Shown here piece after piece: positions 3,005 through 64,000 of a stretch of 64,000 nucleotides of DNA. Origin of the DNA: Prolixibacteraceae bacterium (GTDB lineage Bacteria; Bacteroidota; Bacteroidia; Bacteroidales; Prolixibacteraceae); NCBI GenBank assembly GCA_019459485.1, contig JAIBEZ010000099.1, forward strand, positions 62,001-126,000, in the 5' to 3' direction. Position 1 is the stretch's first letter; each line of letters begins with the position of its first letter. Both the position numbers and the translations under genes were made by a program. The notes beneath the pieces are model-generated. The model was not told where the DNA came from, ran no database searches, and saw only the letters and a list, made by a program, of their open reading frames with translations.

Positions 3005-3039
3005 TACTCAGCAGGTGACTCAAAGTCACCTGCTGAGTA
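3005..3039. repeat. 35-nt REP-like palindrome, left of the RAYT gene
   Basis: Two perfect 16-nt arms (TACTCAGCAGGTGACT and its complement) surround a CAA loop. An identical 35-nt copy lies at 3773-3807, so the two bracket the transposase gene. It could also terminate the fucosidase transcript, although no T-run follows. Confidence 0.9.
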
Positions 3040-3772: not shown

Positions 3773-3807
3773 TACTCAGCAGGTGACTCAAAGTCACCTG
3801 CTGAGTA
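3773..3807. repeat. 35-nt REP-like palindrome, right of the RAYT gene
   Basis: This is identical over 35 nt to the element at 3005-3039. A partial copy (GGTGACTTTGA) sits just before it at about 3761-3771, which suggests repeated insertion at this spot. It lies about 75 nt upstream of the GH9 gene. Confidence 0.9.
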
Positions 3808-47660: not shown

Positions 47661-48021
47661 TATGCCCATTTTGGGCAGGTAACTCTGCCATATTTCCACC
47701 CATAAATAGAATTAACAATTATTTCTTGTTTGATTGTTTTCATAGCATTGTGGCATGAAAATGCCACAAATGATACCATATATCAAGCATATGTGGTATT
47801 TAAGTGTCTTGCTGTCATTTCTATTTGCAAGGCCGTTTCATCCATTTGCCATCACTTTTCTCTCACTTTGGTCCTTCTTATAAAATGGGACTTCGAACTC
47901 TTTATATCTTTTATTTATTTTTACCATCGTAAAACGAGGGGGTTGCACTCCAGATAGACGCAATTTTTTTCATGTGTTACTGAAATTTGCGGGGGTAAAA
48001 TTAAAACTTAAAATATCAGGT
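47661..48021. promoter_or_regulatory. 361-nt region upstream of the nitrate cluster, with hairpins
   Basis: No coding frame is supported. GGCAG/CTGCC pairing near 47676-47691 may end the OmpA transcript. TTGTGGCAT (47748-47756) and ATGCCACAA (47761-47769) form a perfect 9-nt stem with a GAAA loop; as DNA this is a 22-bp dyad of the TTGT...ACAA type seen at Crp/Fnr-family sites. A weaker dyad (ATACCATAT / ATATGTGGTAT) follows directly. Position suggests control of the nitrate genes. Confidence 0.45.
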
Positions 48022-49410
48022 ATGAAAAGTAAAGTTAGACCATCAATAAAATCTGCATCATTAAATCTGTTAAGTTTCAAGGCCCCATACATGAGATCGT
48101 TTCACATTACATGGATGGCATTCTTTCTTTGCTTTTTTGGCTGGTTCGGAGTGGCGCCATTAATGGCCGTTGTTCGGGAGGAATTTCAGCTTACCAAATC
48201 ACAAATCGGGAATATCATCATCTCCTCGGTTATGATCACCATTTTTGCCCGTTTACTGATTGGATGGCTTTGCGACAGAATTGGGCCCAGAATTACCTAC
48301 AGCTTACTTTTGCTTATTGGTTCCTTTCCCGTCATGCTGATCGGTTTGAGTTACGATTACACAAGCTTCCTTATTTTCAGACTGATGATTGGGGTGATTG
48401 GCGCCTCTTTCGTAATTACACAATACCATACTTCGGTGATGTTTGCCCCCAACGTAGTGGGTACGGCCAATGCAACTTCCGCCGGATGGGGAAACCTGGG
48501 CGGCGGTGTCACACAAATGGTTATGCCCTTGATTTTTGGGGTTTTTATTTCATTGGGGTATCTTGACGCGCAGGCCTGGCGGTATTCAATGGTCATTCCC
48601 GGAATTGCTTTGTTTATAATGGCCTTCGTTTACTATTTCTATACACAGGATACTCCTGAAGGAAATTTCAGCGACCTGAAAAAGAACAATCCTGAATTCC
48701 GTGCAAAAACAAAAGAGTCTGCTGGCGCATTTCTGGCAGCTGTAAAAGATTACCGGGTTTGGGGTTTGTTCCTGATTTACGGTGCCTGTTTTGGGGTCGA
48801 ACTCACAATTAACAATATTGCTGCCCTGTATTATAAAGATTATTTCACGCTGGATGTGAAGACTGCCGGGCTAATTGCTGGATTATTTGGTCTAATGAAC
48901 ATTTTTGCACGATCTCTCGGTGGCTTTGTGGGCGACAAAGCTGGAATCCGTTGGGGATTGAAAGGCCGTGTTTATTTTCTGTTCATCGTTTTGTTTCTCG
49001 AAGGATTGTCATTGATGCTTTTTAGCCGGATCAGCGTGCTGCCTTTGGCGATCGGATCAATGGTTATTTTCAGTTTGTTTGTGCAGATGGCAGAAGGAGC
49101 CACTTTTTCCGTCGTTCCGTTTGTAAACAAAAAAGCAGTGGGAACCATCTCCGGAATTGTTGGCGCTGGCGGAAATGCCGGAGCTGTAGCAGCGGGCTTC
49201 TTATTTAAAGCCGAAGGGATTTCGTACCAACAGGGGCTGTTAATTCTGGGAGCCGCTGTAACTGCGATTTCATTGGTGACGTTTTTTGTTCGATTCTCCA
49301 AGGATGCTGAAGAAGCCGAAAAATCGGAACTAAAAGAATATCTAAAAATCAAGGACGAATCTTTGGATGAAGTTGAACCTGCATTCGCCTACTCAAAATC
49401 AAATAAATAG
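48022..49410 (+). CDS. narK: Nitrate/nitrite MFS transporter (NNP/NarK family)
   Basis: This twelve-helix transporter is 462 aa from the ATG at 48022 (MKSKVRPSIKS). Both NNP nitrate signatures are present, GWGNLGGGVTQM in helix 5 and GIVGAGGNAGAVAAG in helix 11, plus the MFS loop motif GWLCDRIGPR. It should import nitrate, and perhaps export nitrite. It is the first gene of the assimilatory cluster, 35 nt before the nitrate reductase gene. A longer frame from 47974 is less likely. Confidence 0.93.
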   Translation: MKSKVRPSIKSASLNLLSFKAPYMRSFHITWMAFFLCFFGWFGVAPLMAVVREEFQLTKSQIGNIIISSVMITIFARLLIGWLCDRIGPRITYSLLLLIGSFPVMLIGLSYDYTSFLIFRLMIGVIGASFVITQYHTSVMFAPNVVGTANATSAGWGNLGGGVTQMVMPLIFGVFISLGYLDAQAWRYSMVIPGIALFIMAFVYYFYTQDTPEGNFSDLKKNNPEFRAKTKESAGAFLAAVKDYRVWGLFLIYGACFGVELTINNIAALYYKDYFTLDVKTAGLIAGLFGLMNIFARSLGGFVGDKAGIRWGLKGRVYFLFIVLFLEGLSLMLFSRISVLPLAIGSMVIFSLFVQMAEGATFSVVPFVNKKAVGTISGIVGAGGNAGAVAAGFLFKAEGISYQQGLLILGAAVTAISLVTFFVRFSKDAEEAEKSELKEYLKIKDESLDEVEPAFAYSKSNK

Positions 49411-49445
49411 ATTATTTATCCATCGAATATTAAAACCCCCATTTT

Positions 49446-52400
49446 ATGGTTGTTGGCGAATATAAATCGACTTGTTCCTATTGCGGTGTGGGGTGCGGAA
49501 TAATCGTCACCCGGCAAAGTAACGCGAAAGTAAGCGTCCGGGGAGATGGGAGTCACCCGGTCAACAAAGGAAAACTTTGTTCGAAGGGCATGAACCTGCA
49601 TTACGTTGTCAATAAACAGGATGATCGATTGTTGACTCCATATATTCGCGGGGGAAAGGATCATCCGTTGCATCCTGTTGAATGGCCCGAAGCCATCGAA
49701 AAAGTTGCCAGCTCGTTTAAACAGCTGATCAAAAAATACGGCCCTGATTCGGTGGGTTTTTATGTTTCCGGGCAATGTCTCACTGAAGAATATTACGTTG
49801 CCACCAAGTTGGCCAAAGGTTTTTGGGGAACCAATAATATTGATACAAATTCCCGTCTTTGCATGAGTTCGGCCGTGGTTGGTTATAAAATGCAGTTGGG
49901 AGAGGATGCTGTGCCTATTTCGTACGATGACATTGAATTGGCTGATTGCTTTTTTATTACCGGCGCAAACCCAAGCTGGTGTCATCCCATCCTATTTCAA
50001 CGCATGGAAGAGCACAGGCGAAAGAATCCGGGAGTAAAAGTAATCGTTGCCGATCCGCGTCGGACTCAAAGCTGTTCAATTGCTGATATTCACCTGCAAA
50101 TAAAGCCCGGCTCTGATGTATTTCTGAATCATGCGATTGGAAGATGTTTAATTGAAATGGGATTGATTGATGCCGATTTTGTAAAAGAACACACCAACGG
50201 GTTTGAAGATTACCGAAAAAAAGTATTTGAATTACCATTGGATGAATATGCCGAACAGTGTGGTGTTACTGCTGAATCCATTAGGCTGACAGCTTCGCTT
50301 ATCGGTCGTTCGAAAGGATTTATCTCCATGTGGGCGATGGGACTAAACCAGAGCGTGATTGGGGTCAATAAAAATTTATCACTGATTAACCTGTCGCTGA
50401 TTACAGGGAAAATCGGAAAACCCGGATCGGGTCCGTTTTCGTTGACAGGTCAGCCCAATGCGATGGGTGGACGCGAAGTTGGTGGAATGTGCAACCTGCT
50501 GCCGGCTCACCGCAACCTGGCCAACGAATCGCACCGGCAGGAAGTTGCCAACTTTTGGGGCGTTAAAAATATTCCGGAGAAACCAGGCTTTAGCGCTACT
50601 GAAATGATTGATGCCCTGAACTCCGGAAAAATGAAAGCGATCTGGATCATCTGCACCAATCCGCTGGTTAGTTTGCCAAACTCTACTCAGGTTGAAAACG
50701 CAATGAAAAAAGCGAGAATGGTTGTTGTTCAGGATATTTCGGCACGATCTGATACCGTGAAATATGCGGATGTAATTTTTCCTGCTGCCGGATGGCTCGA
50801 AAAAGAGGGAACCATGACCAACTCTGAACGACGGGTCAGTTACCTCGAAAAAGTGGTGGAAGGCCCGGGAGAAGCACTTCCCGATTACGAAATTATTTGC
50901 CGGGTTGCGCGCAAAATGGACTATAAAGGGTTCAATTTCAGAAACAGCGAAGAAGTTTTTGATGAATACAAACAATTGACAAAAGGCACCAACATCGACA
51001 TTAGTGCGCTTACATACAATTACTTAAAAGTAAAAGGCAGTGTGCAATGGCCATTTTCTGCTGAAAGGCGGGAAGGAACCACCCGCTTGTTTGAGGATTT
51101 CAGGTTTTATACTCCTGATCAAAGGGCGCAGATATTCGATGTTGAAGCTCCCAATCAATCAGAAGCAATATCCGACGAATTTCCTTTTGTCCTGACCACC
51201 GGACGAATTCGCGATCAGTGGCATACGATGACCAAAACAGGAAAAGTTTCGCGGTTAAACAGGCACATCCCCGAATCATTTTTGCAAATGAACCCCGCTG
51301 ATGCTGACAAATTGAAGCTGAATGATAACGACCTGATTGTTGTAACCGGAAGGCGTGGAATGGTGAAAGTCCCGTTACAGATTACCGATGAGATTCGGGC
51401 GGGAGTCGTATTTTTACCCATGCACTGGGGGAAAATACTCTCGCAAAACGATGTTCGTACAAACAACATTACCAATGTGCTGATTGATCCGAAATCGAAG
51501 GAACCTGATTTTAAATTTTCGGCGGTCAATGTCAGCAAATATCAAAAACCGGTTGAACGCATTCTGATCGCCGGTGCCGGAACCGCTGCATTCGAATTTA
51601 TCCGCAAGTTCCGAGAGAAAAACAAGGAAGATCAAATCATCGTGCTGTCGAAAGAAAAAACAGCTTTTTACAACCGGATACTGTTGCCCGAATACATTTC
51701 CGGAGTGCGAAAATGGGACGAGCTGATGAAGGCTACCGAAAATGACTGGACTTCACTAAATATTACGGTCGAGACCGGCGTATCCATTGAGTTGATCAAT
51801 GCTGAAGACAAAATTGTTGTTGGGTCAAACCGAAAGCAATATGCCTACGACAAACTCATTCTGGCAACCGGCTCGAGGTCAGGAACACCTCCGGAAGAAT
51901 GGCGGACGCTTGACCGGGTATTCACCATTCGAAACAGGGAAGATGCGGATCGGTTAATGGCTGAAGTCGAATCCTGCAGGAATATGCTGGTAGTTGGCGG
52001 CGGATTGTTGGGTCTTGAAATGGCATCGGCACTGATGGAAATTGGGCTGGAAACAACTTTGGTGAACCGGAATCCAAGGTTAATGGACCGGCAACTCGAC
52101 AATGAGTCAAGCCAACTTTTGGCTGAACTGATGTTAACCAAAGGTTTGAATATTTTTTTCAATGATGAAGTAAAAAACATGTCGGAAAATCGAAACTCCG
52201 GAAAAATTGAAGTGGTTTTCAGAAGTGGGAAACGGCTTGATTTTGACGGCATTGTGTTTTCGATCGGAACACGTCCAAACATTGAATACGCTAAGAACAT
52301 ACTGAAATGCAACCGCGGAATTGTTGTAACCGAGTACCTGAAAACCAGCAATGAAAACATATTTGCGATCGGCGAAATTGCCGAATTCAAAGGAAAACTT

Positions 52401-53042
52401 TATGGAATTGCGGCGGCCGCAGAACAACAGGCAGCCGTTTTGTCCTCTTTTCTGAATGGCAATATTTCAGGATACTATCAGGGTTCTGTTATGATGAATA
52501 TCCTGAAAGTCCCGGATATTGATTTGTGTTCGATCGGGCTAACAAGCCTTTCTGATGAGAATCCGGAATATGAAGAAATCATTTTTATTGACAAAGCCGC
52601 CCACTTTTACAAGAAATGCATCGTGAAGGATGATGTTTTGGTCGGTGCAATTTTATTGGGCGACAAGGCCGAATTTGCGGAATACAAAAACCTTATTTCC
52701 CTGCAAAGCGAACTGGGCAGCAAACGGATGAAGTTGCTCCGTGCGGGAAAACCGATGGAACAGGTGATCGGGAAACTGGTGTGTTCCTGCAACAATGTGG
52801 GTGAAGGAAATATTCAGAAAGCCTTGAAAAACGGAATCGTAGGTTTTGAAAATATTTGCGCTGAAACCGGTGCAGGCACCGGATGTGGAAGTTGCAAGCC
52901 CGAAGTGATGAAAATCGTTCAGGAATTCGAAGCTTCGGCTTTGCATTTTCCCAACTCACCCCACGTCCGCTTGCGGACGTCCCCCTCTCTTTCAAAAAGA
53001 GAGGGGAAAGCATCGCAGATGCTAAGGGGTGAGTTAGGATAA
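49446..53042 (+). CDS. Assimilatory nitrate reductase fused to FAD/NAD(P) oxidoreductase and BFD-like Fe-S module
   Basis: This 1198-aa cytoplasmic protein combines three units. Residues 1-690 are a NasA/NapA-like molybdopterin oxidoreductase: [4Fe-4S] ligands Cys10, Cys13, Cys17 and Cys45, a likely Mo-ligand Cys139 in NSRLCMSS, and the dinucleotide-binding domain after about 560. Residues 695-1100 resemble the pyridine-nucleotide-disulphide reductase part of NirB (LIAGAGTAAFEF, VVGGGLLGLEMASAL, FSIGTRPN). A BFD-like [2Fe-2S] domain follows (VCSCNNVGEGNI, GTGCGSCKPEV). It could thus draw electrons from NAD(P)H directly. No Tat signal is present. The last 29 codons and the stop lie largely in an 83-bp palindromic repeat. 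Confidence 0.88.
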   Translation: MVVGEYKSTCSYCGVGCGIIVTRQSNAKVSVRGDGSHPVNKGKLCSKGMNLHYVVNKQDDRLLTPYIRGGKDHPLHPVEWPEAIEKVASSFKQLIKKYGPDSVGFYVSGQCLTEEYYVATKLAKGFWGTNNIDTNSRLCMSSAVVGYKMQLGEDAVPISYDDIELADCFFITGANPSWCHPILFQRMEEHRRKNPGVKVIVADPRRTQSCSIADIHLQIKPGSDVFLNHAIGRCLIEMGLIDADFVKEHTNGFEDYRKKVFELPLDEYAEQCGVTAESIRLTASLIGRSKGFISMWAMGLNQSVIGVNKNLSLINLSLITGKIGKPGSGPFSLTGQPNAMGGREVGGMCNLLPAHRNLANESHRQEVANFWGVKNIPEKPGFSATEMIDALNSGKMKAIWIICTNPLVSLPNSTQVENAMKKARMVVVQDISARSDTVKYADVIFPAAGWLEKEGTMTNSERRVSYLEKVVEGPGEALPDYEIICRVARKMDYKGFNFRNSEEVFDEYKQLTKGTNIDISALTYNYLKVKGSVQWPFSAERREGTTRLFEDFRFYTPDQRAQIFDVEAPNQSEAISDEFPFVLTTGRIRDQWHTMTKTGKVSRLNRHIPESFLQMNPADADKLKLNDNDLIVVTGRRGMVKVPLQITDEIRAGVVFLPMHWGKILSQNDVRTNNITNVLIDPKSKEPDFKFSAVNVSKYQKPVERILIAGAGTAAFEFIRKFREKNKEDQIIVLSKEKTAFYNRILLPEYISGVRKWDELMKATENDWTSLNITVETGVSIELINAEDKIVVGSNRKQYAYDKLILATGSRSGTPPEEWRTLDRVFTIRNREDADRLMAEVESCRNMLVVGGGLLGLEMASALMEIGLETTLVNRNPRLMDRQLDNESSQLLAELMLTKGLNIFFNDEVKNMSENRNSGKIEVVFRSGKRLDFDGIVFSIGTRPNIEYAKNILKCNRGIVVTEYLKTSNENIFAIGEIAEFKGKLYGIAAAAEQQAAVLSSFLNGNISGYYQGSVMMNILKVPDIDLCSIGLTSLSDENPEYEEIIFIDKAAHFYKKCIVKDDVLVGAILLGDKAEFAEYKNLISLQSELGSKRMKLLRAGKPMEQVIGKLVCSCNNVGEGNIQKALKNGIVGFENICAETGAGTGCGSCKPEVMKIVQEFEASALHFPNSPHVRLRTSPSLSKREGKASQMLRGELG
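52953..53035. repeat. 83-bp three-hairpin palindromic element at the end of the nitrate reductase gene
   Basis: Ten-bp terminal inverted repeats AACTCACCCC (52953-52962) and GGGGTGAGTT (53026-53035) enclose three perfect hairpins: 52963-52980 (8-bp stem, ACGTCCGC), 52982-53006 (11-bp stem, CCCCTCTCTTT) and 53009-53023 (6-bp stem, AGCATC). The predicted form is a cloverleaf. It is read in frame to provide the C-terminal tail of the reductase. It resembles the short palindromic intergenic repeats of Bacteroidota. Confidence 0.85.
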
Positions 53043-53090
53043 AAAACACAAATTCAAATGCGACAATATTTCATTATAGCCATGAAACAA

Positions 53091-53130
53091 TCAATGACAA
53101 CGAATGACAACGAATGACAACAATTGACAA
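53091..53130. repeat. Four 10-bp tandem repeats
   Basis: Four consecutive decamers follow the pattern CGAATGACAA (two exact copies, two with one to three changes). They lie in the 159-nt spacer between the nitrate reductase and rubredoxin-tailed genes, which holds no other feature. Confidence 0.8.
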
Positions 53131-53201
53131 CCATAAAAAAGCAGATAGGTAAATAAATAAACAAACAATCATTTAAAAGTATAACATCATTTAGGAACAG
53201 T

Positions 53202-54677
53202 ATGGCAACCAGGAAAAAATTGCTTCGGGTTTTATTAAAGGGAGGAGTGGCCTCCCCCGATTTCTTGCTGCAGCTTTTGGAGTGCGCAGAAAGTTTCGGA
53301 AACCGGACCATCTTTTTTGGCTCCAGACAGGATGTTCTGTTTTATCAGAATAAGGATGAAGTAACCGGCGAAACGATTCAACCCTATGAGAAAATCCTTT
53401 ACGACCGCGATTCAAGCGAGCAAAATATTGTTTCATCGTTTGTTTGTGTCGATGTGTATCCGTCAACTTCGTGGGTACATGCAGGTACATACCTGAGGGT
53501 ACTGGACTCTTTTCGATATCCACACCAACTGCGGGTGAACATTGTCGATCCCAAACAAACGCTCGTTCCGCTATTTTACGGACACATTAATTTTGTGGCG
53601 TCAACAGTCGATAATTATTGGTTTCTCTACCTCAACAACAACGAAAACGGACAACCCGAAGCCTGGAACCGCCTGGTTTTTACCGACGACCTTGCAGTTG
53701 TTGCCGAAGAAGTTGAGAAAATTATCCTGAATTCGCCGGGGCTTTCGGCTGCCGAATATTTTAATCGGTTAATGAAATCATTACAAGTCAACACAATTCG
53801 TGTTCAGGAACCATTGGTTTTGCCTGAAAGCTCCTTTCCCAATTACGAAGGCTTTTATCTGATGGAAAACAAAACGGAGTATTGGGCAGGTTTTTACTGG
53901 CGCAACAATCAATACGACATTCCATTCCTGAAGGAAGTTTGCAATCTGTGCAGGCAATTTGACATCGGGCGGATTGCCATTACGCCGTGGAAAACCTTTA
54001 TGGTAATGGGAATCAAGCTTGCACATCGTGTGTATTGGGAGGAATTGCTGGGTCGGTTTGGTATCAATTTGCGGCATTCGTCCTTCGAATTAAACTGGCA
54101 TCTTCCGTTGCTGGACAACGATGCTTTGGCGCTAAAAAGGTACATTGTTGGTAGGTTCGACAAACGGGATGTACGAACATTTGGGATGTCGTTCGCTATT
54201 AAATCAGGCCCTTCCGAAGAATTTACTTCCGTAGTAATTGAAGTGAAAACACCCACTTTTCTTTCCGTTAACCTGAAATGGCTGGTTAAGTATGATGTGT
54301 GGTTTGCCTACGATTTTAATCCGAACACCCACAAGTACATTTTGTACGAACAAAACCTGTCGAAAAATGAGCTTCCGGAAGTATTGACTGAATTGAGCAA
54401 AAAATATTATTCGCGATTAACTGTACAAAATCGTCAGCTGATAAATCCCAAACCAACTTCAGTAAAAAAACTCAAACAAGTGGTTTACCAATGCCCCGAT
54501 TGCTTCACCATTTATGATGAACGATACGGCGATTTGTTTGCCGGAATTCCTGCACAAACCCCATTCAGACTTTTGCCCGAAAGTTATTGCTGCCAACTGT
54601 GCGAACAAAGCAAAAATCAGTTTGTTGAAATAGAAGTGGATGCAGTGTACAATTCAAAATTGAATTTTGATGGTTGA
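53202..54677 (+). CDS. Rubredoxin-tailed protein of the nitrate cluster
   Basis: This 491-aa cytoplasmic protein ends in a rubredoxin domain (about 425-475): CPDCFTIYDERYGD, then FRLLPESYCCQLC. The four Cys are in place, although the usual second C-P-x-C reads C-Q-L-C. The first 420 residues form a large domain that I cannot assign with certainty. Its two halves (FFGSRQDVLFY and IGRIAITPWKTFMVMG) faintly recall the ferredoxin-like half-domains of sirohaem nitrite/sulphite reductases, but the sirohaem/[4Fe-4S] Cys motifs are absent. It is probably an electron carrier or assembly factor for nitrate or nitrite reduction. moaA overlaps its last codons. Confidence 0.65.
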   Translation: MATRKKLLRVLLKGGVASPDFLLQLLECAESFGNRTIFFGSRQDVLFYQNKDEVTGETIQPYEKILYDRDSSEQNIVSSFVCVDVYPSTSWVHAGTYLRVLDSFRYPHQLRVNIVDPKQTLVPLFYGHINFVASTVDNYWFLYLNNNENGQPEAWNRLVFTDDLAVVAEEVEKIILNSPGLSAAEYFNRLMKSLQVNTIRVQEPLVLPESSFPNYEGFYLMENKTEYWAGFYWRNNQYDIPFLKEVCNLCRQFDIGRIAITPWKTFMVMGIKLAHRVYWEELLGRFGINLRHSSFELNWHLPLLDNDALALKRYIVGRFDKRDVRTFGMSFAIKSGPSEEFTSVVIEVKTPTFLSVNLKWLVKYDVWFAYDFNPNTHKYILYEQNLSKNELPEVLTELSKKYYSRLTVQNRQLINPKPTSVKKLKQVVYQCPDCFTIYDERYGDLFAGIPAQTPFRLLPESYCCQLCEQSKNQFVEIEVDAVYNSKLNFDG

Positions 54678-55662
54678 TGTTAGCGAAGGTATTACGGACA
54701 GGTTTGGCAGAAAATTTGAAAAGTTGCGGGTGAGCCTCATCAATGAATGCAATTTTGCATGCACTTATTGCGTGAGCGATGATGCAAATGGAAGAAATCA
54801 CCTTGAGCCAAATATCAATACTGCGCCTCACCAAAAAAGGCTGAATACTAGGGAGTTTATCGAATCCATCACTTTGGTGCACGATATCGTAAACCTGAAA
54901 AGTATTCGGTTAACCGGCGGCGAACCATTACTTTATCCTGATTTGGCTGGAATTATCCGGGAAATAAAACTTCTGGGAATTGACGATATCCGGCTGACAA
55001 CCAATGCGTATTATTTGAAAGACAAATCTGTTGAACTGAAACAAAGCGGATTGCGGGCGATCAACATTTCTCTTGATGCCGTTGACGGTGAAATTTTCCG
55101 GATGATGTCGGGGAATCAGCGGATGCAACGGGTGCTCGATGGCGTTGATGATGCTCTGGATGCCGGATTGGACGTAAAGCTAAACGCTGTGATCATGAAA
55201 GGTAAAAATGACAATCAGATCATTCCCTTACTTCGATACGCCGGACACAAAGGCATCGACATCCGATACCTTGAACTGATGAAAATGGGTCATTTATACC
55301 ATCACATGGACGGCTTCTTCTTCTCGCAGCAGAATATTCTGGATGTCATTCAAGCCAACTATTTCATTACTGAAGTTTCCCGGAAAAAATCCTCCACCTC
55401 TAATTACTGGAACGTACCCGGAATCGGAAATTTTGGCATCATTGCCAATGAATCGGTTCCTTTTTGTGGCGACTGCAACCGCCTTCGGATGGACAGTTTC
55501 GGAAATTTTTACGGTTGCCTCAGCAGCAGCGTAGGTATTCCGCTGATGAAAGAATCGGGTAACCGCGAGAAAACGGTCGATTCACTTAAACGATTATTAT
55601 CATACAAGCAATCTCATCATTTCAAAGGAAATGAAATGACGATGCGCTATATAGGAGGCTGA
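54670..55662 (+). CDS. moaA: GTP 3',8-cyclase MoaA
   Basis: This radical SAM enzyme starts molybdopterin synthesis from GTP together with MoaC. From the ATG at 54670 it is 330 aa. It has the SAM cluster motif CNFACTYC, the second [4Fe-4S] site FCGDCNRLRMDSFGNFYGC and the functionally important C-terminal Gly-Gly (RYIGG). The start overlaps the preceding gene by 8 nt. No moaC is in the window, so the partner must be encoded elsewhere. Confidence 0.96.
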   Translation: MVDVSEGITDRFGRKFEKLRVSLINECNFACTYCVSDDANGRNHLEPNINTAPHQKRLNTREFIESITLVHDIVNLKSIRLTGGEPLLYPDLAGIIREIKLLGIDDIRLTTNAYYLKDKSVELKQSGLRAINISLDAVDGEIFRMMSGNQRMQRVLDGVDDALDAGLDVKLNAVIMKGKNDNQIIPLLRYAGHKGIDIRYLELMKMGHLYHHMDGFFFSQQNILDVIQANYFITEVSRKKSSTSNYWNVPGIGNFGIIANESVPFCGDCNRLRMDSFGNFYGCLSSSVGIPLMKESGNREKTVDSLKRLLSYKQSHHFKGNEMTMRYIGG

Positions 55663-55666
55663 TTAT

Positions 55667-55924
55667 ATGAGCGATACAAAAAAAGAAGTCAAGGTAATTT
55701 GCTTCGCTGGCTTGCGGAAATATTTTAATCCGGAACTTGCGGTGACGATGGATTTTCCTTCGTCGTATGCTGATTTACTGGATCATTTGGGCAATATAAA
55801 TCCGGAGTCGGTGCCGGTTTTGAAAAACTGCCGGATTGCAGTCGATGAAACTTTCATTCCGGCCACCAGCCCGATAGATGCGACGAAAACTGTGTTTTTA
55901 ATTCCACCGTCAAGTGGTGGTTAA
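55667..55924 (+). CDS. moaD: Molybdopterin synthase sulphur carrier MoaD
   Basis: This 85-aa ubiquitin-like protein ends in the Gly-Gly needed for thiocarboxylation (LIPPSSGG). It provides sulphur to precursor Z within the MoaD-MoaE complex. It sits 4 nt after moaA and 11 nt before moaE. Confidence 0.93.
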   Translation: MSDTKKEVKVICFAGLRKYFNPELAVTMDFPSSYADLLDHLGNINPESVPVLKNCRIAVDETFIPATSPIDATKTVFLIPPSSGG

Positions 55925-55935
55925 AAGGTGATTCG

Positions 55936-56364
55936 ATGAAATTTATTACTGAAAAAGATATTGAAATCGAAAAGCTGTTTGCACAAAGTCACCACCGGCT
56001 TGCGGGTGCAGTGGTTTTGTTTAGCGGCGAAGTGCGCGCATCCAATAAGGATCGTGACGTGTTGCACCTGGAGTACGAAGCTTACATCCCGATGGCCGAA
56101 AAACTGATAGCTGCGATTTTAGACGAAGCCAAAGAAAAGTGGAATTTGAATACTGCTATCTGTGTGCACCGGATTGGCCGGGTTGAAATTTCGGGCTGTG
56201 CAGTGGTGGTAATCACTGCTTCCGCTCACCGTACTCAGGCATATCAGGCCAATCAATTCATCATCGACCGTGTTAAAAATGAAGTGCCGATTTGGAAACA
56301 CGAATTTTTTACTGACGGAACAAGTGAATGGGGTGATAACTGCGATTGCCATCATCATGAATAA
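55936..56364 (+). CDS. moaE: Molybdopterin synthase catalytic subunit MoaE
   Basis: This 142-aa protein has the MoaE signature with LEYEAYIPMAEK, the HRIGRVEISGCAVVV core and the substrate-binding RTQAYQANQFIIDRVKNEVPIWKHEFF, containing the catalytic Lys. It converts cyclic pyranopterin monophosphate to molybdopterin using MoaD thiocarboxylate. It overlaps moeB by 8 nt. The His-rich end (CDCHHHE) is a minor curiosity. Confidence 0.95.
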   Translation: MKFITEKDIEIEKLFAQSHHRLAGAVVLFSGEVRASNKDRDVLHLEYEAYIPMAEKLIAAILDEAKEKWNLNTAICVHRIGRVEISGCAVVVITASAHRTQAYQANQFIIDRVKNEVPIWKHEFFTDGTSEWGDNCDCHHHE

Positions 56365-57082
56365 AACAAACAAATTAACCGAAGCTGAATTAACCCGTTA
56401 CGGAAGGCAGGTCTCGCTGAAAGAAATTGGTGAAGCTGGTCAGCTCAAATTAAAGAATGCCAATGTTTTGGTTATTGGTTGTGGCGGATTGGGTTGTCCG
56501 GCCATTACTTACCTCGCCGCTGCCGGTGTTGGCCGTATTACGATTGTGGACGATGATGTGGTTGATTTAAGCAATCTTCACCGGCAAACGCTATACAGTA
56601 CAGATGATTTGGGCGAAAAGAAAGTTTTTCTGGCTGGAAAGCGTGTTCAGAAAAACAACCCACTGGTAGAGATTGAATGTCTCGACACACGCTTTTCGGA
56701 AGAAAATGCTGCCGGATTGCTCAATGATCGTGATGCAGTGCTCGATTGCACCGACAATTTTAGTACACGCCAACTTCTTGGGGAAAAATCCAGGGAATAT
56801 AAAGTTCCATTGATATTTGCCTCGGTATTAAATTACGAAGCACAGGTCACAGTCTTCAATTTCCAGGAAGGGCCCGCTTACCAGGATTTGTTTCCGGAGT
56901 TGCCCAAAGATGGCATTTACAAACCCGAAGACATTGGTTTATTTGGAGTACTTCCGGGCATTGCCGGAGCATTACAGGCCAATGAGTTGATTAAAATAAT
57001 TACCGGATGTGGCGAAGTACTTTCCGGAAAACTACTCGTCTTTTCTATCCAATCCAACAGGTTCAACGTAATCCGGTTTTAA
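56357..57082 (+). CDS. moeB: Molybdopterin-synthase adenylyltransferase (MoeB/ThiF family)
   Basis: This 241-aa E1-like enzyme adenylates the MoaD C-terminus. It contains the ATP-binding VLVIGCGGLGCPAITYLAAAGVG, DLSNLHRQTLYSTDDLGEKK and DCTDNFSTRQLL. The zinc-binding Cys pairs of classical MoeB are not evident, and it lacks a rhodanese domain. The ATG at 56357 overlaps the moaE stop. The gene's end lies in the left copy of the 33-bp direct repeat. Confidence 0.9.
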   Translation: MNKTNKLTEAELTRYGRQVSLKEIGEAGQLKLKNANVLVIGCGGLGCPAITYLAAAGVGRITIVDDDVVDLSNLHRQTLYSTDDLGEKKVFLAGKRVQKNNPLVEIECLDTRFSEENAAGLLNDRDAVLDCTDNFSTRQLLGEKSREYKVPLIFASVLNYEAQVTVFNFQEGPAYQDLFPELPKDGIYKPEDIGLFGVLPGIAGALQANELIKIITGCGEVLSGKLLVFSIQSNRFNVIRF

Positions 57083-57105
57083 CGGATAATTACTTTCAGA
57101 ATCTC
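57073..57105. repeat. 33-bp direct repeat, left end of the inserted segment
   Basis: It is identical at 32 of 33 positions to 62849-62881 (starting CCGGTTTTAACGGAT; the one difference is at 57088). It contains the last moeB codons and stop; on the minus strand it reads the same C-terminal codons (E-I-L-K-V-I-I-R-stop) that end the DUF4202 gene 5.8 kb away. Confidence 0.92.
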
Positions 57106-57256
57106 GATTAATTTGTGACAATCAAATTAAAACAGTGTAACTATGGTATGAAACGCTGTTTGGTTCTGGCTTGTTTAGGTACTACTCTCTGATTTTTACT
57201 TGTGCAGTCCACAAACAATATTGAAATGCAAATGACAAACAAATTTTATTCAATTT

Positions 57257-57943
57257 TTAATTTCTACCTACAAGTTCAATCAAATAATGCCACAGTGAAA
57301 TCCTATCTTTTGACAGTTCCCTATAATGAGATGAGAATAACTTCTCCACATGAGGAAATGAATCTACTTTCGTCAATTCTTCGTCACTTTCCGACCAATT
57401 AATTGTTGGGTCACTATGATTTTCAGACAATTCTTTAATCCAGTTATTCACTTTTTCTATCCAATCCAAGGAAGTCCGGTTTTGAACATATCCAAACATG
57501 CCACATAATTTGAGATGTGAAGAATGATGCCCTCTTTTAAAACGTTCAATTCCACCTCTAATTCCACATACGTATTCTTTATTATTTGATGATTCTGAAA
57601 ATCTTTTTGCTTCAAATTCAATAATCGGAAGCGGCTTTTGATTTCGCGTCATCACAAAAACACCAATATCTGTTTCTTTATCGGATTCTGGTCGTGTTGG
57701 ATTTTTACTAAACCTAAAAGGGAAATAACCTCCAGTTTCATTCTTGCACAATTCAAAATGATGAACAAGAATATCACTTATCCTATTTTCTTTGTCTGAA
57801 TCTTTTACTGATTGGTAATAAGGTGGAAAATCCGGAACATACTGATCAATAAACGTTAATACTAAATCTACTTCAAAATTTGGAGCAACGCTAAGGTCAT
57901 CAACACTGGGTGTTTGATATGTAGGTAATGAATCTTTAAGCAT
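57257..57943 (-). CDS. PD-(D/E)XK-type putative restriction endonuclease
   Basis: From the ATG at 57943 this is a 228-aa soluble protein; the ATG overlaps the methylase gene's stop by 8 nt. A PD-(D/E)XK-like active site is visible: Asp92 in ETDIGVFVM and Glu111-x-Lys113 in PIIEFEAKRF, with beta-strand spacing as expected for a nuclease core. Translational coupling to an adenine methylase supports a restriction role. No named family was recognised. An alternative is a nicking or repair nuclease. Confidence 0.65.
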   Translation of the reverse strand: MLKDSLPTYQTPSVDDLSVAPNFEVDLVLTFIDQYVPDFPPYYQSVKDSDKENRISDILVHHFELCKNETGGYFPFRFSKNPTRPESDKETDIGVFVMTRNQKPLPIIEFEAKRFSESSNNKEYVCGIRGGIERFKRGHHSSHLKLCGMFGYVQNRTSLDWIEKVNNWIKELSENHSDPTINWSESDEELTKVDSFPHVEKLFSSHYRELSKDRISLWHYLIELVGRN

Positions 57944-60839
57944 TATGGTACCGGGATTTAACATAGTCTGCAAAAGTTTCATCTGCATCCCTTAATGCTA
58001 TAGATGGTAACCAGTAACGTAATTGTTTTGGCTTGGCTAAAATAATAGTGTCCTGTCCATAAGCCTTTATAATTTTCTGTATATGTGTACTTTCCTGATT
58101 TTCCTTTCTTGCAGGTATTACTGCTTCAATGTATTTTTCTATATCATCAGCTTTTTCGTGTTTTGCATTAAGTTTTTCAGGAGTGTATTCAAAGTGCAAT
58201 GCATAATATTTACCAGCATCGATGATTTTAAATAATTGAAATGATTTTTCTTTTTGGTAGATGCTGTTTAAGGTTTTGCAGAATATTTCAGAAAAGAACG
58301 AAACCTCATCATTCGAAGAGTATTCTGATAAATCATTTTTTGCAAGTTGGCTGTTTAATACATCATTAATAATAATTTCTTCAGCATCAGATATTATCAA
58401 GTCATTTTCATTTTCTGAAAACGGTAAATCCATAAAATCCTCAGTCATCGGAACGGTATGGCGATTAACTTTTATTTGACTACTAGTAGCCAAAATATAA
58501 AACCTTAAAATTTTACCATTATTTTTTAAATAGTGAAAAAGTCTTTCTAATGCCGACCGTTGGTTGTCAGGCGCATGAATACCAATTATTTTATTTCTAA
58601 AAACTAAATATTCATCAGATAAGTGAGTTATTAATCCTTCTTTTCCAATGTTGGCTCGAATTAGAATATGAGGTGGAGTGTAAATAAGTATGTTTCTAGG
58701 TCTATGAAATTTTTGTATGTCGCATGAAGTAATTTGAGATTCGTCAATACCATCTTCGGATAAAGCTTTAGATGGTAAATATTTCTTTCCTGTTATATAG
58801 TTACAAGGGTCTCCACTTAATGGGTTATCAATAAAACCTTCACCCTTTAACCAACCATCCGTTTGCTTTGATTCAATGTAATATCTTAAAGAATTAAATT
58901 TGGCTAGTCTTTCTAAAAGATTAATAATTCTACCACCACCTAATAAATTAGCTTTCCATACATATGTGTTATCTAGCACAGCTCTTTTGCTTACTAGATG
59001 GAAATCATAATGGTCAAATTCTAAAAACAATCTATTGGAATTCGAAAATGTTTTATTAGCAACTAAGTGTAAAACATCGTCATTAGTTGGTAAACAATTT
59101 TGCATAAAAACAGCAGCTGTAGCAACAGTTCTTGAACCCCAAAGTATAGTTGCCAACTTAGTTAAATCGATAACCTGCAATAGATTATATTTAACAAACA
59201 ACCCATTTCTAAAACTAATATCTTTTGTATATAAAATAGGAACAGATGGTTGAATTAAACACAGCATTGCATTTTCTTTGAGTAGTTTCAGGGATTGTAC
59301 AAGAAAATGTAACGCGGGATTTTCGTCAGGAATATTTATTTCACTTTTATATCCTATTCTATCTTTTAATTCTTTAAAATGCCTTGTTCTGCTAGGTTCT
59401 TTACCGTTTACTGGAGGTAAATTAAAGGGAGGATTACCAATAACCAAATCAAAATCGGCTTTGGGTTTACTCATAATGAATTTAAAGAAATCCTGAGCAA
59501 TAATGTTTTTACTTAAATCAGGGAACTTTAATTTCTCCCACGTTGGCGGGTCTAAATCAACTTCATCTAATATTGCCAATGCTAAACTGAATATGGATAG
59601 TCGAATCGCGTCCTGTTCAATGTCGACACCGTGAATGCTTTTTAATAAAAGCTCCTTTAGTACCGGCAATGAAGGTTTAATTAATTTTCCGGTCTTTTTC
59701 CACTGTTCATACCGCCACCATTGAACGATGCGTTTGTAGGTTTTTACCAGGAAAATTCCCGAACCACAGCTAACGTCAATTATTTTAAAATCCTTCTGTG
59801 GGTTCTTTATGGGCATGCATTCATCCACCAAAGTGCTAACAACCATTTCAGGGGTATATACAATATCCTTGCTATCTGTTAGTAGTTCTTCATATACCGA
59901 ACTAATAACCTCAACCGGTAAATGTGAAAAAGAATACAGGCGCCAAATTACATATTGATTGTTTTGGATATTTCCATCCAAATAATTGGCTAATTTTTGG
60001 ACTTCGGATTGCTGAATAGCTTTTCTTGCTTCAATTTCTTCGTCCTTGTCCCATTCAAATATTTTTCCATTAAAGTCTTCGCCTAATTTGTCTAGCAAAT
60101 CAAGCAATTTACCTTTTCGAATGGTTTCACAAAAATCGGAGCATTGAAAATTATTTTTAAAATATGTGCCTGCAAAATAACCGCTGGCACTTTTTACATC
60201 TCTTTCTTCTAGGTATTTTATTAAAAGACTTTGAACCAAAAGCTTTAATGCTACGTGTCGGTTTAGCCCGGACCCTTTCTGAAAATCAAGAAATACATTT
60301 TTTAGCCCTTTAATCAAATCCCTTGTCGCTGATTGATCAAATTGAAAATCTTTTTTCTCATTTCGTTCATCCCAAAATATACCGCTGTCAAAATCTTTAG
60401 CGTTAAAGTCTTTGATAGCCTCGCCCGTCCATGTTAATATTTCTTTGGCATAACTGTCTTTTTCCTCTTTTGGTCTTTTCCGGGAATCAAAAATACTTAC
60501 CGTTGATTGTTCAATGATAATGTAAGCAGGAACCTGATAGCCATTCCACATTTGGATATGTATCTTGTTCTTTTCTTCATTAGTAAGTTTTGTATGAGTA
60601 TAATCAAACAAGTATAATTGAGGAACAGAGGCCCTGCCATCCTGAAAATGTCTAAAATAGACGGCATCAGCTTGAAATTTGTTTTTCGCAGTCTCCAGTG
60701 CGAAAAGTATATCTGGTGATGCCAAATCCGAATCCATATCTTCAAAATTATTTGTCAACAGCACTCCGCTCTTCTTCTTATCATCTAATAAAGAGAAGTT
60801 TAAGTCAATGATATGTTGTTCAAATAATTGTGTTGACAT
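57936..60839 (-). CDS. N6-adenine DNA methyltransferase, large (type I/IIG-like)
   Basis: This 967-aa protein has an N-terminal region of about 150 residues (with NGYQVPAYIIIEQSTVSIFD) like those preceding type IIG methylases, and a helical N6_Mtase-like stretch with EVISSVYEELL and YTPEMVV. SAM motif I follows (DVSCGSGIFLV, about 355-365), then the adenine-methylase catalytic motif NPPF at 469-472. The C-terminal 400 residues probably recognise DNA (target-recognition-like). No separate specificity subunit or helicase is nearby. With the downstream nuclease it forms a compact two-gene system. Confidence 0.83.
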   Translation of the reverse strand: MSTQLFEQHIIDLNFSLLDDKKKSGVLLTNNFEDMDSDLASPDILFALETAKNKFQADAVYFRHFQDGRASVPQLYLFDYTHTKLTNEEKNKIHIQMWNGYQVPAYIIIEQSTVSIFDSRKRPKEEKDSYAKEILTWTGEAIKDFNAKDFDSGIFWDERNEKKDFQFDQSATRDLIKGLKNVFLDFQKGSGLNRHVALKLLVQSLLIKYLEERDVKSASGYFAGTYFKNNFQCSDFCETIRKGKLLDLLDKLGEDFNGKIFEWDKDEEIEARKAIQQSEVQKLANYLDGNIQNNQYVIWRLYSFSHLPVEVISSVYEELLTDSKDIVYTPEMVVSTLVDECMPIKNPQKDFKIIDVSCGSGIFLVKTYKRIVQWWRYEQWKKTGKLIKPSLPVLKELLLKSIHGVDIEQDAIRLSIFSLALAILDEVDLDPPTWEKLKFPDLSKNIIAQDFFKFIMSKPKADFDLVIGNPPFNLPPVNGKEPSRTRHFKELKDRIGYKSEINIPDENPALHFLVQSLKLLKENAMLCLIQPSVPILYTKDISFRNGLFVKYNLLQVIDLTKLATILWGSRTVATAAVFMQNCLPTNDDVLHLVANKTFSNSNRLFLEFDHYDFHLVSKRAVLDNTYVWKANLLGGGRIINLLERLAKFNSLRYYIESKQTDGWLKGEGFIDNPLSGDPCNYITGKKYLPSKALSEDGIDESQITSCDIQKFHRPRNILIYTPPHILIRANIGKEGLITHLSDEYLVFRNKIIGIHAPDNQRSALERLFHYLKNNGKILRFYILATSSQIKVNRHTVPMTEDFMDLPFSENENDLIISDAEEIIINDVLNSQLAKNDLSEYSSNDEVSFFSEIFCKTLNSIYQKEKSFQLFKIIDAGKYYALHFEYTPEKLNAKHEKADDIEKYIEAVIPARKENQESTHIQKIIKAYGQDTIILAKPKQLRYWLPSIALRDADETFADYVKSRYHNA

Positions 60840-61175
60840 AATAGAATTTCACCAATATTCGTATAAACAAAAGTACATTTTTATTAACGAGTTCCTGAAA
60901 AAAAATCAACCGAAATTTCAATCGTATTTTCAGTCACAATGAAGAAGGTGCGCCGGAAAAAAATTGGCTCTTTTGCAAACAGAAGCATATGCTTGTGGGT
61001 TGGAACTTGCAAAAGTGCCAAATGTGCGTTGGCAATTATCATTTCCATTTTACTCCTCCGTTTCATAGTTGTCTTTTTTTAGCATGGCAGCCAATGTCTT
61101 CGTATATCTACCTTGTAAGTATATTTTCTTTTTATTATATGGCGATACCGCATTAGTACCTCCCTTTTAAGCAAA
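60840..61175. other. Gene-free region with nested inverted repeats
   Basis: This region precedes the methylase gene and should hold its promoter. GGCTCTTTTGCAA (60966-60978) and TTGCAAAAGTGCC (61007-61019) form a 12/13 inverted repeat around the perfect palindrome AAGCATATGCTT (60983-60994). TGCCAA/TTGGCA (61016-61021, 61029-61034) follows. Short open frames here look like chance. The sequence resembles a dispersed Bacteroidota repeat. Confidence 0.55.
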
Positions 61176-61205
61176 ACTCCCACCGCCATTGCAAGCGGTG
61201 GGAGT
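61176..61205 (-). terminator. Terminator of the DUF6261-like gene
   Basis: ACTCCCACCGC (61176-61186) pairs perfectly with GCGGTGGGAGT (61195-61205). Read on the minus strand, the hairpin lies just after the stop at 61212 and is followed by TTTTGCTT. Confidence 0.8.
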
Positions 61206-61211
61206 CTTACT

Positions 61212-61958
61212 TTATTTCGCCGGTACCGAATTGGTTTCTTCTTCTTCGGGTTGTTCTTTATAGATGGCGAAGTGCGCATATTCTCTGCGGAGGCCGTCAA
61301 TTTGGTTAAAAAGTTGGGTAAGTGCCTCAGAAGGGATGTGTTTTACGGCTTGCTCAATGGCATCACAAAAGTCGTTGTAGTTTTCAACCACCGTGGCTTT
61401 CAAACTGCTGGCCGAAGGACCACCGTTTGCATCCTGCGATGCGCGTTCTTCCGAAAGCGTCTGATAATTAAGGTTAACGGATTCCAAATCATTTAGCATA
61501 CCGTCAATACCTATTGTGATGGCATGTTCCTGCACTCCTCCCTTGTTGGTTTTATAGATATCAAATAGCTCAATGTAAAGGGAGGTTTGAACATTCACCG
61601 GTTTGCTGTTGGCTTTCCAGCATGGCTCCAGAAATAACTTCAGCAAACGTCCCGATTCCTTTTTAACAGGGTCGAGGCCTTCCAATGCCGTGTTTACGTT
61701 TCTTTTAATTTCAGACCATCGGGTCTTGCGGTCATTCCCTGCTTCTTTAACGGCCGGGGTCAGATCACTTTTTCTCGATTTCATCATGCTTTCGCCCATC
61801 GCGTCGTTACTGGTTTCAAGTGTAGTAAAGGCAACAGCTGCAACTGTGCCGATTTCTTCCTGTACAGGCCTTGCATACTTTAAGGTACCGTGACAAAGGG
61901 CATTGAGTTTCTCGATCGATAAGCGGACCGTGTAGATTGTGCTTAGTTCATTCGACAT
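61212..61958 (-). CDS. DUF6261-like protein of unknown function
   Basis: From the ATG at 61958, after an A-rich leader, this is a 248-aa soluble, mostly helical protein (MSNELSTIYTVRLSIEKLN). It resembles the DUF6261 group of Bacteroidota proteins, which have no known role; this match is from memory of the family's style. The C-terminal tail is acidic (EQPEEEETNS). It lies inside the inserted segment. Four 41-bp tandem repeats lie just upstream of its start. Confidence 0.65.
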   Translation of the reverse strand: MSNELSTIYTVRLSIEKLNALCHGTLKYARPVQEEIGTVAAVAFTTLETSNDAMGESMMKSRKSDLTPAVKEAGNDRKTRWSEIKRNVNTALEGLDPVKKESGRLLKLFLEPCWKANSKPVNVQTSLYIELFDIYKTNKGGVQEHAITIGIDGMLNDLESVNLNYQTLSEERASQDANGGPSASSLKATVVENYNDFCDAIEQAVKHIPSEALTQLFNQIDGLRREYAHFAIYKEQPEEEETNSVPAK

Positions 61959-62064
61959 TTTTTTTAATTTAAAGGTTACACATTTATTGGCCATCAACCG
62001 GCATTGATGTCTTTCTTTTTTGCATAGACCAAGCCATGCTGCCGTTTTTTTTAAAATTCCACAA

Positions 62065-62228
62065 TTTTCAGAACCATTCTCACCAACGAATTTGTGCTTC
62101 TGAAATTTTCAGAACCATTCTCACCGACGAATTTATGCTTCAGAAGTTTTCAGAATGATTCTTACCAACGAATTTATGCTTCTGAAATTTTCAGAAGTAT
62201 TCTCACCGGCGTTTTTTTGCTTCTTTCG
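62065..62228. repeat. Four 41-bp tandem repeats
   Basis: Copies begin at 62065, 62106, 62147 and 62188, each opening TTTTCAGAA and containing ATTCTCACC and GCTTCTGAA blocks. The first three are close to each other; the fourth diverges at its end. Each junction (TTCTGAAATTTTCAGAA) is palindromic. The 41-bp period is not a multiple of three, which argues against coding. There are no unique spacers, so it is not a CRISPR array. Confidence 0.9.
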
Positions 62229-62848
62229 TTGGCAGGTTCCATTCCATCCGCCCGAATTTTATTCCCCAATAAATCTTTTCAGCTTTTCAATGCCAGTGTA
62301 ACTTGTAAAACGGAACTAAATTACAACAGTTTTCTAAATAATTTGTTATGTTTTTCAATTATAATTGTGAACTATACAAATTTTATTGGCAATCTCTGCA
62401 GAATTACCATCATTTTGGGGATTATCAGTTTTACTCACAAAAATGGAACGCGGATAAAATCCCGAGGACTCGGGACGGATATAAAACGGATAAAATATTG
62501 CATATTTAAACGGCAGGCACTCGTAAGGGAAGTTGAATCCGTCCCGATAAATCAGCGATTTTATAGGGTATATCAGTTTTATAGTATTGAATAATAAACA
62601 ACAATAAATGAATGAGTTACCGGTAAATTCGAACACTCTAAAAATGGCGGTATCCATTTTTATTATTCATTAGATATTTTAGCGGCGAAAGGTAAGGTAA
62701 TAAGGTGAAAATCAAATGTGCAACTTTTTCCACTATGGTTAATAAATTGGAAATGAGGTTTTTGTATTTTTAAAAAACCTTATTTTCCACATTAAACCTA
62801 AGTAGAAAGACAAAACAGGGGAAAAGCAACCTTATTCCCTTATTTATC
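62229..62848. other. Gene-free right part of the insert with inverted repeats
   Basis: No supported gene is present. TCCCGAG/CTCGGGA pairing (about 62460-62474) adjoins CGGGACGGAT (62471-62480), whose complement ATCCGTCCCG recurs at 62537-62546. AGGTTTTT/AAAAACCT (62756-62763, 62773-62780) forms a further hairpin that could terminate minus-strand transcription from the DUF4202 gene. The rest is A+T-rich and looks like remnant or regulatory DNA. Confidence 0.5.
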
Positions 62849-62881
62849 CCGGTTTTAACGGATTATTACTTTCAGAATCTC
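62849..62881. repeat. 33-bp direct repeat, right end of the inserted segment
   Basis: This copy (32/33 identical to 57073-57105) contains the stop and last codons of the DUF4202 gene. Its sequence also matches the last moeB codons and stop in the left copy, which shows that the two genes were probably convergent neighbours. Confidence 0.92.
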
Positions 62882-63439
62882 CTTTATTTGCTCCGGAAAT
62901 GAAATTTTCAGAGCCTCTGCAATTCCACCTTTTGACATCTTGTCCATTGTTTTGAATAAAATCCGTTTAAATTCCAGGTGTTGGTTTTTAGCTGCGAAAT
63001 CCTCCAGATAATATTCCATAAAAATCAGGCAAACGGCATCCTCCAATGTCTGAGCTTCCTCATCGTTGTGTAGGTTATCTTTCAGGGTAATCGAGCGTAT
63101 CCTGCTGATAGTCTGTTCAGAAAAGCCTGCACTGGCAAGAATTTCAGCAGCTTTCTTCGACTGATATTTTGCCAGAAACGTTCGCCATTCCAAATATCCG
63201 TTCCTGCCATCCGGATAATCGCTCCGGGCAATTTCCCATCGGTACAAATGCTGGCAATAGCCTGCCAGTAAAAGCTCTTCTGAAGCATCCGGCCTTAAAG
63301 CTTTTATTCGGCTCACCAAACGTTGGGTGTAAAGCCATTCTGCGGGAATTGCTTCTCCTTCCGAAAATTCAGAATGCGGATCTTCTCTGTGTGCTATTTC
63401 AAATGCGGCAATTGCACGGTTGTGAAATTCAGTTTTCAT
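62855..63439 (-). CDS. DUF4202 family protein
   Basis: This 194-aa (from the ATG at 63439) helical protein matches DUF4202: FHNRAIAAFEIAHREDPH, PAEWLYTQRL, then AGYCQHLYRWEIARSDYPDGRNGYLEWR, with conserved His and Asp residues that suggest a metal site. A start 13 codons upstream (63478) is possible. DUF4202 genes often lie beside nitrite or nitrate assimilation genes, as here with nirB diverging on the other strand. The biochemical function is unknown. Confidence 0.85.
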   Translation of the reverse strand: MKTEFHNRAIAAFEIAHREDPHSEFSEGEAIPAEWLYTQRLVSRIKALRPDASEELLLAGYCQHLYRWEIARSDYPDGRNGYLEWRTFLAKYQSKKAAEILASAGFSEQTISRIRSITLKDNLHNDEEAQTLEDAVCLIFMEYYLEDFAAKNQHLEFKRILFKTMDKMSKGGIAEALKISFPEQIKEILKVIIR

Positions 63440-63757
63440 TAAAAATTTGTGTTGCAAAATATCATCAAATAACGTCATTTTATAGCGTAATGTTTCCTGA
63501 CGGTTAATATTTCAGTCTAAATATCATCAATTTGCAAATTAACACAACTTCAATAAAAGATATAAATATCTTTATATGCCCAAGATAAAAAAGGGGGTCA
63601 ATTTCAGAATAGCGAAATTAATTTGACATTGACTTCATTTTTTCAGGGGGTACAACCAAAAAACCACAAAACCAGCCAGCATTCACCACTATAAATAGAA
63701 TGGAATATTTCTCATCAGGATTGATTCCATGTATTATAAGAACAAATTACAACCGAG
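63440..63757. promoter_or_regulatory. Divergent intergenic region between the DUF4202 gene and nirB
   Basis: This A+T-rich, 318-nt space must hold promoters for both directions. TATAAATATCTTTATAT near 63559-63575 is a loose palindrome. No coding frame or clear terminator is present. No firm TAnnTTTG element was assigned. Confidence 0.4.
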
Positions 63758-64000
63758 ATGAAAAAGAAAATTGTATTAATCGGAAACGGAATGACAGGTT
63801 TCAAATTCTGCGAAAAATTCGCGGAAGCCGGAATGAGTGCAGATCACGAATTGATGGTATTTGGTGAAGAAAATCATCCGGCATACGACCGCGTTCACCT
63901 CACTTCCTTTTATACCGGAACCAGCTCTGACGAACTTTTGCTTGCGCCTTCCAATTGGCACAGCGACAACCATATTGTGCTAAAAACCGGAGATCGCATT
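63758..64000 (+). CDS. nirB: Assimilatory nitrite reductase large subunit NirB, N-terminal part
   Basis: The 81 codons from the ATG at 63758 to the window end encode the FAD-binding start of NirB: KIVLIGNGMTGFKFCEKF (Rossmann GxGxxG), then GEENHPAYDRVHLTSFY, the conserved YDRV-L motif, and LLLAPSNWH. NirB reduces nitrite to ammonium with NAD(P)H using sirohaem and Fe-S clusters; those domains lie beyond the edge. Its position completes the nitrate-to-ammonium route. Confidence 0.92.
   Translation, partial: MKKKIVLIGNGMTGFKFCEKFAEAGMSADHELMVFGEENHPAYDRVHLTSFYTGTSSDELLLAPSNWHSDNHIVLKTGDRI

Follow-up and report, generated by a model that had tools for sequence, protein, structure and literature searches.

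A 5743-bp segment with a restriction–modification (R-M)-like gene pair was found in the window (the whole 64-kb stretch of DNA analyzed here) inside a nitrate assimilation cluster, between the convergent genes moeB and DUF4202, with a 33-bp direct repeat at its two ends (Table 1). The locus fits the Helicobacter pattern of insertion with long target duplication: it combines the 33-bp repeats, flanking genes that are joined in relatives, and R-M genes, the nuclease being assigned by motif and gene pairing. On balance, we think it probable that a DNA fragment was captured at a staggered break, or inserted by template switching, at the stop-codon overlap of the two genes, with 33 bases copied twice.

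The two copies of the repeat were located by sequence comparison and are identical at 32 of 33 positions, as had been noticed in a first, sequence-only reading of this DNA. The left copy is CCGGTTTTAACGGATAATTACTTTCAGAATCTC and the right one differs from it by A to T at position 16, so that the consensus is CCGGTTTTAACGGAT(A/T)ATTACTTTCAGAATCTC. The stop codon of moeB (57080–57082) lies inside the left copy, and that of DUF4202, encoded on the minus strand, inside the right copy (62855–62857). The last bases of moeB are retained in the right copy, and the left copy retains the last codons and the stop of DUF4202. The earlier statement that the left copy still encodes these residues on the minus strand was thus confirmed in the sequence, and both genes proved to be intact, as had been supposed. 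A search of the genome (5,528,957 bases, up to 3 mismatches allowed) found the repeat in exactly two places, those of the window; the reversed control pattern gave zero matches in the same search. Since it occurs in only two places genome-wide, the repeat is neither a dispersed element nor, at such length, a chance match. A further direct repeat, exact and ~35 bp long, is present elsewhere in the window (3005–3039 and 3773–3807), outside the insert.

Table 1. Positions in the window of the insert, its contents and the flanking genes
Feature	Position	Strand	Basis or remark
Nitrate assimilation cluster, left part	47974..56364	+	Pfam domains; putative gene names, taken from domains
moeB (MoeB/ThiF family adenylyltransferase), intact	56357..57082	+	Pfam ThiF 1.9e-68
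Left 33-bp direct repeat copy	57073..57105		moeB end and remnant of DUF4202 end
Inserted segment between repeats, 5743 bp, 35.0% G+C	57106..62848		Site empty in four relatives
Nuclease-like gene, 243 aa, D107 / E126-x-K128 motif	57257..57988	-	Motif in aligned relatives
Eco57I/N6_Mtase-type methyltransferase, 967 aa	57936..60839	-	Pfam Eco57I 1e-12, N6_Mtase 2.3e-10
DUF6261 gene, 248 aa	61212..61958	-	Pfam 2.3e-11
Tandem array upstream of DUF6261, about four units of 41 bp	62050..62213
Dispersed repeat element, left arm and ~155 bp palindrome (~62690–62848)	62543..62848		Ends at right 33-bp repeat
Right 33-bp direct repeat copy	62849..62881		DUF4202 end and remnant of moeB end
DUF4202 gene, intact	62855..63478	-	Pfam 5.7e-58
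Start of reductase gene, probably nirB (putative name), cut by window end	63758..64000	+

To the left of the insert, the nitrate assimilation cluster encodes an MFS transporter, a molybdopterin oxidoreductase fused to a pyridine nucleotide reductase, a NIR_SIR half-domain/rubredoxin protein, moaA, moaD, and moaE. The product of moeB matched the NCBIfam MoeB models below their curated cut-offs. On the other side, the 81-aa reductase fragment at the window end had no Pfam match and aligned at ~83% identity with the beginning of an 828-aa ORF located beside DUF4202 in genome G018, which belongs to the same genus as the window. The DUF4202 gene is rare: counting the genome of the window each time, it was found in 3 of 61 relatives, in 8 of 140 genomes of the family, and in 3 of 393 genomes across the order. 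A literature search found no paper on DUF4202.

In four of the seven other DUF4202-bearing genomes of the family (G018, G499, G518, and G498), moeB and DUF4202 are adjacent and convergent with a 4-bp overlap of their stops and nothing between them. The surroundings in G018 also resemble those in the window, with a set of nitrate reductase-type genes beyond moeB and a reductase of the same kind beyond DUF4202. The other three family genomes (G464, G439, and G030), as well as G412 and G316 from the search of the order, are uninformative on the empty site because moeB was not beside DUF4202 in the stretch read (~1.5 kb on each side for G464 and G439; 18 kb for G030, as also for G018). In G464 and G439, DUF4202 is adjoined instead by a relative of the 491-aa protein of the window (53202–54677), and none of the DUF4202 neighbors matched in the 18 kb read for G030. 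The DUF4202 proteins of the window and of its family relatives are only 44–49% identical; therefore, the 33 bases could not be aligned in the relatives, and it is the joint that was compared. Each of the four empty-site relatives has one moeB–DUF4202 joint, and two repeat copies were found in none of them. Thus, the original proposal that moeB and DUF4202 were once convergent with overlapping stops agrees with the arrangement in four relatives, and the adjacency predicted for genomes without the methylase was observed in all the family genomes that are informative.

The base composition of the insert is foreign to its surroundings: its G+C content is 35.0% vs. 43.9% in the region to the left (47974–57072), in line with the early description of the segment as A+T-rich. 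Within the insert, the G+C content was 33.2% for the methylase–nuclease pair and 45.8% for the DUF6261 gene. The former value was the lowest in the whole window when it was scanned in stretches of 3583 bp at 250-bp steps (mean of 41.6, standard deviation of 2.5). Besides the methylase gene, the insert contains the nuclease-like gene, the DUF6261 gene, a tandem array, and a dispersed element reaching to the right repeat. As already remarked on first reading, no integrase is visible: neither transposase nor integrase was found among the ORFs of the insert or by Pfam and NCBIfam searches of four genes. We failed to find in this genome a second copy of the insert or a match to its left end. Rfam search of the insert gave nothing at the gathering score, and below it (E up to 1) only two weak animal microRNA models. 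Phage origin was rejected, as the methylase had no match in 50,697 phage records and the nuclease had no relative on viral contigs; plasmid origin was also rejected, the plasmid relatives of the methylase all being below 60% identity (53 records; 27–29% among the matches listed).

The methyltransferase was closest to type IIG restriction enzyme–methylases (PADLOC REase_MTase_IIG, 8.2e-38), and its N-terminal region is conserved. The gene of the 243-aa protein overlaps the methylase gene by 53 bp. This small protein belongs to no Pfam, NCBIfam, or PADLOC family; residues D107, E126, and K128 were invariant in all 30 aligned relatives. In its predicted structure (pLDDT 85.6), E126 and K128 lie on strand 121–130 and D107 just before strand 108–112. 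A search of the PDB with this model gave no match at E ≤ 0.001 (R.SwaI had rank 19 with E 0.17); hence, the name of nuclease is drawn from the motif, its layout, and the gene pairing, which point to a putative PD-(D/E)XK-like nuclease. The partner gene was found beside the methylase at 33 of the 35 named loci examined (of 80 found) and at eight of the nine family loci, the contig of the ninth ending within the methylase. The designation of the pair as defence comes from homology; the pair would restrict unmodified DNA while protecting its own.

The domain of the methylase matches Pfam Eco57I and the PADLOC type IIG model, as in Eco57I/MmeI-like type IIG enzymes; however, at these 33 of 35 loci the methylase gene is followed by a small nuclease gene of its own, which has a D...ExK motif, and cutting therefore probably does not, or does not only, reside in the methylase chain. 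Weak similarity of the methylase domain to BREX PglX and MADS methylases was also detected (PADLOC mad2 2.1e-14 and PglX 4.1e-10; also NCBIfam), but the scores were far below the NCBIfam cut-offs (41.3 vs. 720 and 36 vs. 400), and none of the other genes of the insert matched a BREX or MADS model of PADLOC or NCBIfam.

The closest loci, L064 and L112, have DNA 82–84% identical to that of the window, the shared stretch being limited to the methylase–nuclease core (57243–61034). The surroundings of this core are different in the two loci, which indicates that the 33-bp repeat belongs to the target and not to the core. In L112, the 84%-identical pair of Alkalitalea saponilacus is located between two imperfect palindromic stretches (180–330 and 4258–4410), which we take to resemble integron-type recombination sites. 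Upstream of the methylase in L064 (genome G452), a short stretch at ~9000–9130 looks like the C-terminus of a maturase from a group II intron.

The right end of the insert is formed by a dispersed repeat element consisting, in the window, of a left arm and a palindrome; the latter folds at -51.7 kcal/mol as part of 62660–62860 (z -4.3). The family of this element was present in 15 of the 31 genomes searched, mainly in the genus of the window, across which the palindrome family recurs. At L195:1350–1785, the element is ~430 bp long and has inverted ends CCCCGATTAATCAGCGATTTT with the palindrome of ~155 bp inside. We read the borders of nine copies besides that of the window, and in seven the sequence extends to the right base of the palindrome. 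Of these seven, six (L193, L194, L195, L196, L002, and L003) continue into a right arm of ~110 bp, among them all three copies that share most of the left arm of the window (L193, L195, and L003). This right arm, seen in the closest copies, is missing from the copy of the window and was found nowhere in the window. The end therefore looks broken rather than like the terminus of a transposon. On the other hand, the seventh copy (L004) has no right arm and nearly all the shorter, more diverged copies in this genome end near the palindrome base, so that this base may be a natural end. Most likely, if not provably, the DNA broke at the foot of the long hairpin to give the right end of the insert.

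Under the preferred reading, non-homologous recombination would have placed a linear DNA fragment of ~5.7 kb, with the R-M-like pair, DUF6261 and its array, and part of the dispersed repeat, in a break where the stops of moeB and DUF4202 overlap. The ends of the break would have been staggered by ~33 nt, or the repair would have copied 33 nt twice, e.g., by template switching; the joint would have been duplicated in this way, leaving a complete 3' end to each of the genes. Compared as an inverted repeat, the insert ends GATTAATTTGTG and GATAAATAAGGG agree at 8 of 12 positions; this would be in keeping with a process resembling transposition and counts against capture; random ends of the same insert reached this match in 0.57% of 20,000 trials, the match itself having been noticed after the fact.

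One point against this reading is that arrival in one step is presumed, and that the methylase–nuclease pair and the DUF6261 gene differ in G+C content. The insert may instead have been assembled stepwise, the duplication coming from a first insertion or from a small tandem duplication at the joint and the parts arriving separately or being trimmed later. The nearest loci, L064 and L112, which share the core without the DUF6261 part, also speak for such a history; against it, DUF6261 stands directly upstream of a like methylase and nuclease in L117, so their pairing is not unique to the window. We consider stepwise assembly unlikely, if worth keeping in mind. Integrative elements commonly use the 3' ends of genes and leave direct repeats, and the restored ends of both moeB and DUF4202 would agree with site-specific integration, in which the 33 bp would be an attachment core and the integrase would act in trans or have been lost. 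The lack of an integrase gene in the insert, the absence of any insert at DUF4202 in the other nine genomes whose neighborhood was read, and the absence of a matching core repeat in all relatives of the core make this rather improbable. A non-autonomous element with unusual ends may also have transposed and duplicated 33 bp of its target; this would explain the partial agreement of the insert ends and is consistent with diverged copies of the dispersed element often ending at the palindrome base; however, 33 bp is long for a duplication made by a transposase, and the insert has no second copy and its left end no match elsewhere in the genome, so we regard this possibility as slight. An assembly error that joined unrelated DNA at the 33-bp sequence is hardly credible: although the genome is a draft of 114 contigs with an estimated contamination of 3.67%, both joints are inside one contig of 135,829 bp, a repeat family with other members in the genome is represented in the insert, as is a DUF6261 gene with a paralogue there, and two false joins would arise only if the foreign DNA also contained the 33 bp.

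Long target duplication as a habit of the whole R-M family was not supported, tight flanking repeats being found at just 3 of 41 cores. At seven of the nine family loci, those that were testable, there was no bracketing repeat longer than 17 bp. In a first scan, the best ungapped bracketing repeat was determined at 32 of 35 loci chosen from 80, the other three having short flanks. Three loci scored above the window (30): L117 (101), L118 (58), and L123 (169). The repeats of L117 and L123 involve similar, paralogous-looking genes on both sides. That of L118 is an intergenic sequence, presumably common in its group, and a repeat in L122 (score 26) lies inside two genes and presumably encodes a motif of class I tRNA synthetases. 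A second, tighter and gapped scan gave repeats at L117, L123, and L135 (the 3 of 41 cores) vs. 17 of 625 shifted control cores, of which two were the repeat of the window itself and two came from L123; the core of the window was one of the 41 and was negative, its repeat lying beyond the 2-kb flank. In L117, a remnant resembling the end of a DUF6261 gene follows the nuclease; the right repeat copy looks like this remnant followed by an identical hairpin, and L117 is thus not a clean target duplication. The rarity of bracketing repeats at related R-M loci counts against the capture reading.

The DUF6261 gene of the insert is accompanied by its tandem array, and such arrays proved to be widespread. 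Repeat periods of 20 to 120 bp were scored upstream of DUF6261 genes (window 61212–62213; L046–L050, L200–L245, L117:3000–4457), and 43 of 49 loci from the genus and the order had a peak at ~41–43 bp or its double. In the genus, 21 of 24 loci peaked at 41 or 82–84 bp; of the exceptions, masked bases interfered in L206, and no such array was present at L214 and L050. In the order, the peak was at 41, 42, 43, or 82 bp in 22 of 25 loci, which remained from a sample of 28 (out of more than 100 matches listed) after three proved too short. At a match score of at least 0.60, such an upstream period was found at 40 of the 49 loci. In the downstream control, 7 of 49 peaked at such a period and only two of them at a score of at least 0.60, both being contig-edge loci (L209 and L212) in which the upstream and downstream stretches cover the same DNA. 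Among 507 ORFs of at least 200 aa at the examined loci, DUF6261 genes included, 20 had any upstream period at a score of at least 0.60. In seven of these, the period was 41–43 or 82–84 bp: six were DUF6261 genes, including that of L117, a locus that had not been chosen for DUF6261, and the seventh, the sole non-DUF6261 case, was a divergent neighbor sharing the array of L117.

The sequence of the array unit is specific to each locus, and the period stays at ~41–43 bp; one unit spans about four helical turns, and the units often contain a short palindrome. A single-sequence model of the DUF6261 protein was useless (pLDDT 36.5). In L117 (3708–8299), DUF6261, the methylase, and the nuclease are ordered and oriented like their counterparts in the window; DUF6261 was absent from beside the pair at the other 79 named loci and the nine family loci. 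The literature search yielded no paper on DUF6261 arrays, and the sole paper on DUF6261 was unrelated by its title. It appears about evenly balanced whether the insert carries an undescribed gene-plus-array module, in which the DUF6261 protein may bind to its own array or maintain it and which might help R-M genes to settle in chromosomes; the last point is left open because DUF6261 recurs directly upstream of the pair in L117.

Insertion of R-M genes with long target duplication in Helicobacter pylori was reportedly described by Nobusato et al. in 2000 (Gene 259:99). The Helicobacter precedent invoked in the sequence-only reading could be substantiated, since passages of four papers describe such insertions in H. 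pylori (PMC1643837, PMC3031569, PMC4978471, PMC11708052), and a passage in one of them attributes the same pattern to Neisseria as well (PMC11708052). Going by these passages, the window resembles the H. pylori cases in its R-M-type genes, the direct repeat of the target at both ends, and the joining of the flanking genes in relatives without the insert. It differs from them in several respects: the host is only distantly related to Helicobacter, DUF6261 with its array and part of a dispersed element are additional contents of the insert, the duplicated bases are placed exactly at the 4-bp stop-codon overlap of convergent genes, and the comparison with relatives concerns the joint rather than a single copy at the nucleotide level. 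Among the matches listed in the literature search (titles and beginnings of abstracts), which included Bacteroidetes, no such insertion outside Helicobacter and Neisseria was seen.

It has long been asked how R-M genes come to be in chromosomes without the help of a transposase. The locus described here offers a clean comparison of the states before and after insertion: at the site the two stops overlap by 4 bp, the duplication preserved both genes, and relatives have the empty state. The repeat element at one end of the insert, which looks broken, speaks for a DNA fragment having been captured at a break, an idea that is testable. The DUF6261 arrays may be a by-product of this analysis that matters more than the insert itself.
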